The notes below the pieces were generated by a model. That model was given only the letters and a program-made list of their open reading frames with translations, was not told the origin of the DNA and made no database searches. A program made the position numbers and the translations under genes. From Myxococcales bacterium (GTDB lineage: Bacteria > Myxococcota_A > Polyangia > Polyangiales > Polyangiaceae), in assembly GCA_025351875.1 (NCBI GenBank), contig JANXVA010000246.1:1-36443 (forward strand): a stretch of DNA of 36,443 nt, read 5' to 3'. Shown here piece after piece: positions 3,419-8,613 of this stretch (its first letter is position 1; the number at the start of each line of letters is the position of its first letter).

Positions 3419-4825
3419 TTACTCGACGCAGCGGAAGCCGCCGGCGTTCGTCCACTCGCGGGCGGTGCCGCCGAGATCGTAGGTCGGGATACGCTCGAGG
3501 ACGGTGGGGTCGAGATCCTTGGTGGCCACCAGGTCGTCGAGGAGATCGAAGTCCATCGGGCGCATGCGCACGCGCATCGTGACGCGGTCCGGCGGAGGCA
3601 GGGGGAGGGTGAAGGTCTTCGTGACGGAGTGGAAGAACGCCGGGTCCTTCGGGTCCGCGGTGACGGCCGCGGGGAGTAGCTCGGACTCGAAGCGCGCGGC
3701 CTGCCAGAAGAGGTGGGTCTCCTTGTCGTCGGGGCCGAAGATCTTGTCGCGCAGGAGCCAGAGGTTGGGATCGACGATGCTGGTGACGGACTTTTTGTCG
3801 GGCACCACGCCCGTCGCGAAGACCTGCGCGCCGTCGCGATAGGCAACGAACTCGAGCCACGCGCGCCGGTCCTGGGCCGCACCGCTCGGGAATTTGTGCC
3901 CTGCGAACGCGTTGTCGAGCGTCACCTCGGCGAGCACGCCGACGGGCGACTGCTTCACGCAGAGCTTCGTGAGGAGCGTCGCATCGAGGAGCTTCTGTAC
4001 GGCCGTCCGCTGGGCTTCGCTCTCGGAGAAGGGCGAGACTGCGATGTCGACCGCCGCCATCGAGTGGTCGTGCACGCGGCGGATCGGCGCGCCTGCCACC
4101 CTCGCAGCGACGCCGTCGCGGCCCTCCATGTGGCACTTGCCGCACGAGAGCTGACCCGGCTTGGCGTACAGCGATGCGTTCCACTCCTCGAACGTGCGCT
4201 CGATGTGCGCGCCCGCCGGAGTGACGACGTCGTGGCACGCCCCGCACATCGTCGCGGAGGCCTGCGTCTCGCGGTCGTGGAGCGGCGAGTACGTGGCGCG
4301 ATGCGGGCCCTTGATCGGATTCGTGATCGCGCCACGCAGGGCGCCGTCCGTCGCGAGGCGGAGCGGATTGCTGTGCGTGCCCTCGACCGCGTCCGTCGAG
4401 TGGCAGAAGTAGCAGGTGACGCCGCGCACCGACGCGGGAAGGTCGGCGAGGTTGAGGCCGTCCTTCGTCAGTCCCATGCGAACCGCGACCGGTGCGTGGC
4501 AGCTGACGCATAGCGTTCCCGCCTGGCCGTTCGTCTCGCGCTGCATGCGCCTGTTCATGGCGAGGAAGACGGGGTCCTCTCCGGCGTACGCGTGCATGCT
4601 GCCCGACCACTCGCGGAACTGGTCGGCGTGGCAGGGGAGGCAGTTGTTGGGGTCGAGGAGCGCGTCGCCGGTGAGCGTGGGCGTGTCGTCGGTCCTCGAA
4701 GAGGTGCAGGACGCGAGGATCGCGGCGAGCCCGAGGAGCGGGACCGCGACCGCGGTCAGCGAGGCCCGCGAGCGCGTGCGTGGCCCCGAGGGACGCGCTG
4801 CGGTTGCGGGCTCTTCGTGGTGCAT
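3419..4825 (-). CDS. Five-haem cytochrome c lipoprotein (cytochrome c554-like)
   Basis: A 468-residue protein with a long basic N-terminus and a lipobox at Cys40 (Leu-Ala-Ser-Cys). Five CxxCH haem-binding motifs are visible, starting at residues 62 (CLPCH), 106 (CVSCH), 138 (CYFCH), 194 (CGACH) and 228 (CGKCH). The arrangement, with NCLPCHADQFREWSGSMHA first, is that of the cytochrome c554/NrfB-like multihaem domain. The C-terminal 220 residues have no haem motif and look like a beta-rich domain (VGVLAEVTLDNAFAGHKFPSG). The start is supported by AAGGA about 10 bases upstream of ATG 4825. It lies 78 bases downstream of the copper ATPase on the same strand. It probably transfers electrons at the outer face of a membrane; the partner is unknown. 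Confidence 0.85.
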   Translation of the reverse strand: MHHEEPATAARPSGPRTRSRASLTAVAVPLLGLAAILASCTSSRTDDTPTLTGDALLDPNNCLPCHADQFREWSGSMHAYAGEDPVFLAMNRRMQRETNGQAGTLCVSCHAPVAVRMGLTKDGLNLADLPASVRGVTCYFCHSTDAVEGTHSNPLRLATDGALRGAITNPIKGPHRATYSPLHDRETQASATMCGACHDVVTPAGAHIERTFEEWNASLYAKPGQLSCGKCHMEGRDGVAARVAGAPIRRVHDHSMAAVDIAVSPFSESEAQRTAVQKLLDATLLTKLCVKQSPVGVLAEVTLDNAFAGHKFPSGAAQDRRAWLEFVAYRDGAQVFATGVVPDKKSVTSIVDPNLWLLRDKIFGPDDKETHLFWQAARFESELLPAAVTADPKDPAFFHSVTKTFTLPLPPPDRVTMRVRMRPMDFDLLDDLVATKDLDPTVLERIPTYDLGGTAREWTNAGGFRCVE

Positions 4826-4903: not shown

Positions 4904-7318
4904 TCAGATCGCGCGACGCAGCCGGAGCGCGTTGCTGATGACCGAGACCGAGCTGAAGCTCATCGCTGCGGCGGCGAGCATCGGGCTGAGGAGCAGGCCA
5001 AATGCGGGGTAAAGCGCGCCCGCCGCGATCGGGATGGCGAGCGCGTTGTAGCCGAATGCCAGCGCGAGGTTCTGCCGGATGTTGCCCAGCGTCGCCCGCC
5101 CGAGCCGTACGGCGCGGACGATGCCGCGGAGGTCGCCCTTCACCAGCGTGACGCCAGCGCTCTCGATCGCGACGTCCATTCCGGTGCCCATGGCGATGCC
5201 GACATGCGCGGTCGCGAGGGCAGGGGCGTCGTTGATGCCGTCGCCGGCCATCGCGACGATCGCGCCGCCACGCTTGAGCTCGGCGACGGCGCGCGCTTTC
5301 GCGTCCGGAGCCACGCCCGCCATGACGTCGTCGGGCGCGATGCCGAGGTCGCTCGCGACGGCGAGCGCGCTCGTCTTGGCGTCGCCTGTGAGCATGATCA
5401 CGCGGATGCCGAGCTCGCGGAGGCCGGCGAGCGCCTCGCGGGTGGTCGGCTTGATGCTGTCGGCGATCGCCCAGAGCCCTGCGTACGCACCGTCGAGCGC
5501 GGCGAAGGATACCGTCGCTCCCTTCGCGCGGAGCTCCTCGGCGCGCGCCACGGCGGCAGCGGGGAGGTCGATGCCGGCGTCGGTGAGCAGCTCGCGCGTT
5601 CCGAAGAGCAACGAGGAGCCGTCGACGTCGCTCGTGATACCTCGGCCGCGCACGGCTTCGGTGCGCGGGACGCCCCCCGCCGCTTCGATCCCTTCGCCCT
5701 TCGCATGCGCGACGATCGCGCGGGCAAGCGGATGCTCGCTGCCGAGCTCGGCAAGGGCCACGCGGCCGATCAAGAGGCGCCGGTCGATGCCTTCGGCGAG
5801 CTCCACGACCTGTACCGTGGGCTTGCCCTCGGTGAGCGTGCCGGTCTTGTCGACGACGAGCGTCGTGATCTTCGAGAGCGTCTCGAGCGCCTCGGCGTCC
5901 TTCACGAGGACCCCCGCGCGCGCCCCGGTGCCCGTTGCGACCATGATCGACATCGGCGTCGCCAGCCCGAGCGCGCAGGGGCACGCGATGATGAGCACGG
6001 CGACCGCCGCGACGAACGCATGAGGGACGCGCGGGTCCGGCCCGACGAGGAGCCAGGCCACGAACGCCAGCGCGGCGGCAAGGATGACTGCGGGCACGAA
6101 GACGGCGCTCACGCGATCGACGAGCTTCTGAAGCGGCGCACGGGACCGCGCCGCGTCCGAGACCATCTTGACGATCTGAGCGAGCAGCGTCTCCTTGCCG
6201 ACGCGCTCGGCGCGTACGACGAGCGCACCGTCACCGTTGAGCGTGCCGCCGGTGACACGGTCGCCCGGGCCCTTGTCGACGGGCAGGGGCTCGCCGGTGA
6301 TCATCGACTCGTCGATCGCCGACTCTCCCGACTCGATGGTCGCATCGGTCGGAACGCGCTCACCGGGTCGAACGCGGAGCCGGTCACCGACGACGACGTG
6401 GGGAAGGAGAACGTCCTCCTCGGTGCCGTCCTGCCCGATGCGGCGCGCGGTCTTCGGCGCGAGGCGCAGGAGCGAGCGAATCGCGTCGCCCGTGCGATTC
6501 CTTGCACGGAGCTCGAGGACCTGACCGAGCAAGACCAGCGTGGTGATGACGGCGGCGGCCTCGAAGTAGACGTCGATGCTGCCACCGTGGCCGCGCATGC
6601 TCTCCGGGAAGAGGCCTGGAGCGAACGTCGCGACCAGGCTGTAGAGGAACGCCGCGCTGGTGCCGAGAGCGATCAGCGTGAACATGTTGAGCGAGCGGAG
6701 GCGCACCGAGTCGACGCCGCGAACGAAGAACGGCCAGCCGCCCCAGAGGACCACAGGCGTCGCGAGCGCGAGCTCGACCCACGTGAGGCGCCCCATGCCG
6801 AGCGCATGCCCGACCGGGTTGCCGGCGAGCATCTCGCTCATCGCGAGGAGGAAGAGGGGAACGGTGAGCGCAGCCGAGGCGACGAGGCGCCGCTGCATGT
6901 CGTGGAGCTCGGCGTTCTCTTCGGCGCTCGCCTCGGCGGTGACCTCCTTCGGCTCGAGGGCCATCCCGCAGATCGGGCACGAGCCGGGCCCCTTCTGCAC
7001 GATCTCGGGGTGCATCGGGCACGTGTACTCGGCATCGCTCGAGGCCTCGTTCACGGCGGCGAGCGGCGGCGCGTGCGCATTCGAGGCGCACGACGAGCAC
7101 GCGCGGAATTTCGCGAGGCACGCCTCGCGGCAGAACGCGAACGTCTCTCCTTCATGGACGAGCTTGTGCTTGGCGGTCGCGAGATCGACCTTCATCCCGC
7201 AGACCGGGTCGCGCGTCAGCGTCGTGAGTTCGAGGTTCGGCTCCGTCGCCGGAGTCATCTGCTCTTGGTGGTGGTTCATGGGATCTCGAGGCTGCTGACG
7301 CACCGGCCTCGATTCCAT
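4904..7318 (-). CDS. copA: Copper-type P1B ATPase with N-terminal YHS and heavy-metal-binding domains
   Basis: An 804-residue ATP-driven heavy-metal exporter. The N-terminus has a YHS domain (DPVCGMKV, residues 38-45, with [10 protein letters not shown]) and then the short heavy-metal-binding motif YTCPMHPEI...GSCPICGM (98-119), not the usual CxxC ferredoxin-like domain. The core is intact: TGEP actuator loop, CPC metal site in the membrane (Cys446-Pro-Cys448), phosphorylated Asp490 in [11 protein letters not shown] motif (SEHPLARA) and hinge [11 protein letters not shown] indicates Cu(I)/Ag(I) specificity. ATG 7318 has GAGG six bases upstream; a TTG at 7339 and an in-frame ATG at 7279 are alternatives. 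The cytochrome gene follows in the same direction. YHS/HMBD-type copies are common in environmental bacteria and are usually annotated copA or copB; the symbol is by family. Confidence 0.93.
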
Positions 7319-7414
7319 TACACGCCTCGTGCCGCGCAAGAACCCGCGGCCGCGTCGCGGAGGTGAGGCCCAGGGGCCGCAAAGGCCGCGTCACACCGCA
7401 TCGTTTGCGTGCCG

Positions 7415-7950: not shown

Positions 7951-8355
7951 ATGAGCGGCACGAAGCGTAAGGGGAGCGGCGAGGCACCGGATGTCTCTCA
8001 CCACCCGACGCGCAAGGTCGACAGCATGTCCTCGCTGGTGGCCGAGATGCTCCTTCGCGATCCGGACGCGGACGTGACGTCGCCGAACGGCCTCCCGGCC
8101 GTGACCGGGAAGGCCGTCGACCCGGAGAACGACAGCGACGCGCACGACGCGGTCGGGCTCGACATGGCGCGCCTCATCGAGGTGCGGACCAGCGTGGCGC
8201 CGCCCGCCGCGGCGCACTACGCATCGGCCCCGTCGGCCGATGACTCGGCCGACATTCGCGCCTTCCGTTCACGAAGGCCGCGCGTCGTCGCGGCGGTCGT
8301 CGTCGTCCTGGTGCTGATCGGCTTCGTGGCTGCGGCGCTCTCGCTGTCGCGCTGA
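7951..8355 (+). CDS. Small tail-anchored membrane protein of unknown function
   Basis: A 134-residue protein of no recognised family. The first 105 residues are hydrophilic and probably disordered in part (lysine-rich start, Asp/Glu-rich centre, Ala/Pro/Ser stretch). A basic patch (FRSRRPR) leads into a single C-terminal membrane helix (VVAAVVVVLVLIGFVAAALSL) ending three residues later, so it is most likely a cytoplasmic protein anchored by its tail. The segment SMSSLVAEMLLRDPDADV looks like an amphipathic helix that could bind a partner. ATG 7951 follows GGTGGG; a GTG at 7945 is in frame. It is followed 39 bp later by the Acb2-like gene on the same strand, so the two may be cotranscribed. 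Confidence 0.62.
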   Translation: MSGTKRKGSGEAPDVSHHPTRKVDSMSSLVAEMLLRDPDADVTSPNGLPAVTGKAVDPENDSDAHDAVGLDMARLIEVRTSVAPPAAAHYASAPSADDSADIRAFRSRRPRVVAAVVVVLVLIGFVAAALSLSR

Positions 8356-8394
8356 CGTGATCTGATACTACTGATCGCGGAGGTGGGTATCCCC

Positions 8395-8613
8395 ATGGGC
8401 GACTTCGATCCCGAGTACGTGTTCTCGCATCACAGCTCGACGCCGGCGAAGCTCGCCGACTACGAAGCGATCCACACGGGCGCGAAGGCCTTCGCGGAGG
8501 TCATCCTCGCGCACGTGCCCGAGTGCTCCGACCGCCTGGCGGTGCTGCGGCTCCTTCGCGAGGCGTCGATGCTCGCGTGTGCCGCGGTCGCGCTCGAAGG
8601 GCGCTTGAAATAG
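8395..8613 (+). CDS. Small helical protein resembling Acb2/Tad1 cyclic-nucleotide sponges
   Basis: A 72-residue all-helical protein. After an acidic lead comes YVFSHHSSTPAKLADYEAIH, then GAKAFAEVILAHVPECSDRLAVLRLLREASMLACAA in two parts. This layout, an aromatic/His strand, a Tyr-containing first helix with A-K, a P-x-C/S turn and a second helix ending EAxMxAxAA, is the one I know from the Acb2/Tad1 hairpin family (DUF7681-like). Acb2 proteins are phage-encoded sponges that bind cyclic di- and trinucleotides and block CBASS and related defences. ATG 8395 has GGAGG ten bases upstream; GTG 8383 is less likely. No phage gene is nearby, so a chromosomal role, immune regulation or prophage remnant are all possible. 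Assignment rests on pattern alone. Confidence 0.6.
   Translation: MGDFDPEYVFSHHSSTPAKLADYEAIHTGAKAFAEVILAHVPECSDRLAVLRLLREASMLACAAVALEGRLK

Follow-up and report, generated by a model that had tools for sequence, protein, structure and literature searches.

The window analysed here, a stretch of 36,443 nucleotides from a genome of the Myxococcales (contig JANXVA010000246.1), carries a short gene whose product resembles the Acb2 and Tad1 sponges of phages, and the question raised by this locus is whether such a gene is a leftover of a prophage, a safeguard for the CBASS defence of the host or a component that the host has turned to another use. The answer favoured below, to which we give an even chance of being correct, is that the gene encodes a domesticated sponge with an altered pocket, which would buffer an endogenous nucleotide signal and would not act as a CBASS antagonist. 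The features on which the argument turns are collected in Table 1.

Table 1. Positions of the hairpin gene, its pocket codons and the adjoining upstream features within the window.
Feature	Position	Strand	Basis or remark
Acb2-family hairpin CDS, stop included	8395..8613	+	Pfam PF24729, PHROGs, 13-row alignment, model
Shine-Dalgarno-like GGAGGTGGG	8379..8387	+	7 bases before the ATG, from sequence
His12 codon	8428..8430	+	Equivalent to T4 Acb2 Tyr8 (hhalign, residue tables)
His27 codon	8473..8475	+	Equivalent to T4 Acb2 Lys23 and to residue 26 (Lys) of the solved Pseudomonas phage p26
134-residue ORF, hydrophobic C-terminus	7951..8355	+	Ends 39 bases upstream of the hairpin gene

The reading frame opens with an ATG at 8395 and closes with a TAG stop at 8611-8613, giving a product of 72 residues. 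The first-pass annotation had assigned this product to the Acb2/Tad1 family and had proposed a profile search as a check; in the Pfam scan the Acb2/Tad1 hairpin family PF24729 was matched with 34.3 bits (E 2.7e-8), over its curated cut-off of 27 bits, and the assignment was upheld, with weaker support from the structure and profile matches described below. Matches were also obtained to PHROG 31113 (E 9.7e-11) and PHROG 1454 (E 5.4e-8), both families of unknown function, and 12 further intact homologues with 56-78% identity to the window protein were recovered, so the frame is not a chance one. Comparison of the window protein alone with the PDB using phmmer returned a single weak and unrelated match. 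A pattern search for promoters and terminators between 7700 and 8750 found none, and an Rfam scan of the whole window returned zero families over threshold. One copy of the hairpin gene is present in the window's genome (an 8.9-Mb draft in 805 contigs, 94.75% complete), and a search of plasmid sequences gave one weak match. The gene had been described as lone, which is right for its copy number within the draft genome but not for the order, 13 other genomes of which hold the gene or a broken copy.

A structural model was predicted using AlphaFold from an alignment of 68 sequences (mean pLDDT 94.9, pTM 0.78). In this single-chain model a short N-terminal helix (residues 6-9) leads into two long antiparallel ones (17-40 and 45-66), in agreement with the helical-hairpin pattern that had been read from the sequence. 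According to the accessible text of PMC12043709, Tad1 has an N-terminal antiparallel beta sheet before its hairpin, whereas the model of the window protein contains no beta strand; an identity as Tad1 was therefore rejected, and the protein resembles Acb2 rather than Tad1. Foldseek listed 62 matches for the deep model, of which the first two were chains of T4 Acb2 (Vs.4) with cGAMP (PDB ID: 7uq2), likewise a hairpin with a short N-terminal helix, from which the window protein differs by a shorter stretch between the long helices. The top chain was matched with a probability of 0.87 and a TM-score to the query of 0.65, but with an E-value of 1.2 and an rmsd of 6.9, and the second chain with a probability of 0.77, a TM-score to the query of 0.61, an E-value of 1.6 and an rmsd of 5.2; these model-based matches would not stand alone. 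A shallower model built from 13 sequences (pLDDT 83.2) had a Tad1 chain at E 7.2 and no Acb2 chain in its listing of 50 Foldseek matches. When the 68-sequence profile was compared with solved structures, Acb2 homolog 43 (PDB ID: 9ptq) was the best match (E 0.0011), followed by a designed helical bundle (E 0.014), which ranked above T4 Vs.4 (E 0.065). Tad1 chains (PDB IDs: 7uav, 7uaw, 8kbe-8kbh), which share the Pfam family by name, were matched very weakly (E 0.78-0.92) and over part of the C-terminal helix.

The window protein was aligned with T4 Acb2 using hhalign over 62 columns (probability 87). A weak phmmer match (E 0.027) places Tyr8 and Lys23 of T4 Acb2 on Tyr11 and Lys26 of the Pseudomonas phage protein, in which Lys26 presumably provides the phosphate contact, a salt bridge. 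According to the available portion of PMC12657218, the Y8A mutation of T4 Acb2 disrupts the binding of cyclic dinucleotides, on whose bases Phe82 stacks; Y8A is also termed binding-deficient in that of PMC12657230, and the accessible part of a review (PMC10419184) gives a salt bridge with the cGAMP phosphates. In the window protein the three T4 residues Tyr8, Lys23 and Phe82 are replaced by His12, His27 and Ala66, respectively. All 13 host rows have a His/His pair at the Tyr8 and Lys23 equivalents, and none of the 165 listed viral rows does, the latter carrying Tyr/Arg (154), Tyr/Asn (5), His/Arg (3), Cys/Arg (1), Tyr/Lys (1) or Phe/Arg (1), with Tyr at the first position in 160 of the 165. 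This viral sample comprised 206 loci and 165 distinct extracted strings, to which two scans contributed the best 80 of 195 and the best 80 of 292, the latter using the C-terminal pattern only. As the patterns of the other viral scans include the pocket region, they favour the query's letters there; the C-terminal-pattern scan gave the same answer (68 rows listed: Tyr/Arg 65, His/Arg 2, Phe/Arg 1), and after rows of identical core were merged 149 of 160 listed rows were Tyr/Arg and none His/His. Acb2 homolog 43 carries Thr and Lys at the two positions. Three viral loci (L163, L202 and L219) have His at the Tyr position and keep the Arg, and may represent intermediates toward the host change.

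Before the His/His pair the host proteins share an invariant F-[DN]-P-x-Y-V-F segment, and their invariant Tyr8 and Pro6 occur seldom or never among the listed viral letters; at position 62, 8 of the 13 host rows have Cys and all 165 listed viral rows have Asn. Conserved in host and phage alike are, for example, F10, H13, Y23, A34, P42, M59 and A61; His13 does not vary among the 13 host rows and recurs in 163 of 165 listed viral rows. The usual Acb2 pocket residues (Tyr8 and Lys23 in T4, mostly Tyr/Arg in viral homologues) are absent from the host clade, and because both equivalents have changed, binding of the classical ligands cannot be assumed. The change at both positions could have abolished nucleotide binding. 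Judged from the sequences, two positions that changed together and were then kept fixed by purifying selection point to a new or narrowed ligand more than to decay, although this reading is weakened by the Thr at a pocket position of Acb2 homolog 43 and supposes that His12 and His27 line the pocket.

The same 14 genomes were matched by a profile of the host clade whether the search covered 183 genomes of the order or 317 of the class; 13 of the 14 belong to the family of the window's genome, and the other to a second family of that order. Thirteen of these copies are intact. The remaining one, in genome G005, is a decayed congener copy (L025, G005:C49, 985-1136) whose start is missing and whose frame shifts part-way, perhaps owing to pseudogene formation or an assembly error, and it was left out of the 13-row host alignment. 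PF24729 itself was matched over cut-off in 13 of the 183 order genomes; the matches in G117 and G098 were dropped, as they fell below the cut-off with partial profile cover inside long frames. Across the phylum sample PF24729 was over cut-off in 5 of 377 genomes: two belong to the host clade, and of the other three, two (G187 and G420) have matches that are phage-like in sequence. The hairpin genes of these two genomes (L060 and L061, respectively) have Tyr/Arg at the pocket positions and are perhaps prophage genes. Presence within the window's own genus is patchy, with an intact gene in 2 of 12 genomes and a broken one in a third. Twenty columns are invariant among the 13 host proteins. The gene occupies the same chromosomal site, with most neighbours in order, in two pairs of species (L033/L034, over ~15 kb, and L030/L032), and dN/dS was 0.066 in both. 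Among the 25 of 78 pairs for which values were given, two of them without a defined dS, the ratio otherwise reached up to 0.40 in more distant pairs, the window gene giving 0.20 against L024 and 0.14 against L023, its two nearest relatives.

The surroundings were examined by scanning 10 neighbouring proteins against PHROGs and 10 against Pfam, 11 different ones encoded between 2884 and 14375, and no recognisable phage structural or replication gene was found among them, which bears out over this range the earlier statement that no phage genes surround the locus. Pfam identified a multihaem cytochrome, a heavy-metal P-type ATPase, a kelch protein, a MAPEG protein, a sigma-70-type factor, a Ser/Thr kinase, a YtkA-like protein and a weak TPR match, with two proteins lacking a match, and PHROGs matched 4 of the 10 (ATPase, sigma factor and kinase; the kelch protein, and the kinase again, matched families of unknown function). 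The ATPase gene (4904-7339, minus strand), whose product has YHS and HMBD domains, adjoins the multihaem cytochrome gene (3419-4825, minus strand). The nearest same-strand neighbour had been described as tail-anchored, and its sequence does read as ending in a hydrophobic segment; this upstream ORF matched no Pfam family over cut-off and no PHROG. It was found in 3 of 108 family genomes, the window's own included and the other two as short weak matches, and was rejected as an operon partner; as it is not conserved, it probably lies outside the hairpin system.

Elsewhere in the clade, a Pfam scan of 10 neighbours in 7 other loci, from which the neighbours of L027, L029, L031, L033 and L035 were excluded, found no recognisable phage gene. 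At L030 and L032 the hairpin gene begins 10-11 bases past the stop of a dehydrogenase-like gene, and at L032 an acyl-CoA-binding-protein (ACBP) gene follows 6 bases downstream. The search for a partner gene conserved across the clade found none, except for the RNase H gene beside three loci (L026, L033 and L034), where an RNase HI gene stands divergently within ~100 bases of the hairpin gene. Within the genus of G145 this RNase H locus was matched in 7 of 8 genomes; the copy in G149 has no significant trace of the hairpin gene alongside, with the contig end ~480 bases off, and three other genomes of the genus have distant RNase H relatives only (38-42%). Phage Tunturi_1 (L067) also has an RNase H gene two genes away from its hairpin gene, an arrangement that is probably coincidental, and a phage source for the pairing was set aside.

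Descent was assessed with a midpoint-rooted tree of 91 rows and 72 columns, consisting of the 13 host rows and 78 of the 165 viral rows (every sixth one in addition to the 60 that lie closest to the host set, which were all included). The host genes formed one branch (100/97) inside the viral diversity and grouped with the viral pair L056/L057 (99/89). L056 (IMGVR_UViG_3300022745_000062) is a 43.5-kb viral contig on which genes for a phage-type DNA polymerase, an exonuclease and an HNH endonuclease adjoin the hairpin gene. The protein of L056 and its near-copy L057 is 52% identical to the window protein, but differs in having Tyr/Arg in the pocket and no F-[DN]-P-x-Y-V-F start, and in the setting of L056 among phage replication genes. 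Transfer from phage to host is the likeliest reading of this tree and not a proof, given the midpoint root, the 72 columns, a still unsettled bootstrap and the program's long-branch warning. Among viral relatives, gp211 of Mycobacterium phage Myrna (L066, 1444-1941) is a product of 165 residues in which the hairpin domain carries a long C-terminal extension.

Two of the explanations put forward in the first-pass annotation lose ground on this evidence. A host-owned buffer that sets a threshold against accidental CBASS activation would fit the binding of CBASS signals by phage Acb2 proteins, as described in the available parts of PMC12043709 and PMC12657218, and a SMODS CD-NTase does occur in 2 of 14 clade genomes. 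However, the enzyme was also found in 20 of 169 other genomes of the order (22 of 183 in all; Fisher p 0.68) and not in the window's own, AGS_C and the Cas10 palm over cut-off were each found in 0 of 14 clade genomes, and the pocket residues are unlike those of signal-binding Acb2, all of which makes such a buffer very unlikely. The Cas10 palm search gave three matches below cut-off, and the one in G145 is, by motif, a GGDEF protein. A CBASS role of whatever kind for the host protein is put no lower than unlikely, as the CD-NTase search consisted of SMODS and AGS_C, with other CD-NTase families, Thoeris and Panoptes outside its scope, and the genomes are drafts (72-98% complete). The second explanation, a last prophage gene carried along passively, would agree with the many viral relatives, the decayed copy in G005 and the patchy presence. 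Against it stand the 13 intact copies in a single, monophyletic chromosomal clade, the 20 invariant columns, the sites shared in two species pairs together with the low dN/dS measured there, and scanned neighbours free of recognisable phage genes, so a prophage remnant is very improbable. The remaining branch of the earlier alternatives, in which the gene is host-owned or co-opted, gains support.

For a gene owned by the host, the changed pocket may still be read in more than one way. It is a tentative proposition, which we take seriously while doubting it, that the histidines form a pocket for a ligand other than that of phage Acb2, the protein serving either as a dedicated receptor or reservoir for an endogenous nucleotide messenger of myxobacteria or as an anti-sponge that spoils the hexamers of phage sponges. 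As an anti-sponge the host protein would co-assemble with the sponge of an incoming phage, spoil its pockets and so protect signalling defences. A change at both pocket positions while the phage-shared positions stay is what would be expected if assembly were kept and binding altered, but signal-using defences were detected in few clade genomes and an invariant His/His pair points to a pocket with a positive role rather than to simple loss, and this particular role appears improbable. The pair could also form a metal or catalytic site together with His13, making the product a metal-binding protein or a cyclic-nucleotide hydrolase. All three histidines are invariant in the 13 host rows; the near-universal conservation of His13 in the listed viral rows, however, renders this idea very doubtful.

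In the domestication that we favour, a gene for a phage Acb2-type sponge would have been captured once by an ancestor within the myxobacterial order, mainly in one family, and then retained as a chromosomal gene. The host protein most likely still makes a compact Acb2-type oligomer, in which the cyclic-dinucleotide pocket would be altered from the phage Tyr/Arg(Lys) to the invariant His/His, residues that probably line it. It would bind and buffer a nucleotide signal of the cell itself, candidate signals being c-di-GMP or 3',3'-cGAMP from GGDEF enzymes.

In the accessible parts of the literature Acb2 is described as a protein of phages, with 239 tailed phages listed in PMC12043709, 198 homologues in other phages in PMC10449767, the phrase 'relatively rare phage proteins' in PMC11722364 and a Microbacterium phage in PMC13348362. 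No host-owned Acb2 was found in these parts, most subscription papers and all supplements being outside reach, and a search of PMC gave no paper describing Acb2 homolog 43, although the deposit 9ptq indicates that work on Acb2 homologues is under way. Acb2 is a homohexamer that sequesters cyclic di- and trinucleotides and blocks CBASS. It is encoded by phages and prophages, whereas the gene described here is chromosomal and keeps its site in two species pairs. What is new is the His/His pair at the Tyr8 and Lys23 equivalents throughout the host clade. The literature, so far as accessible, treats such sponges as weapons of phages. A chromosomal match to PF24729 is not, taken alone, evidence of a prophage or of anti-CBASS activity. 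The host clade, conserved on the chromosome and with its pocket changed systematically, would constitute a natural experiment in the conversion of a sequestering protein into a host component, and its small protein would allow a test of whether protein sponges serve bacteria as buffers for second messengers of their own.
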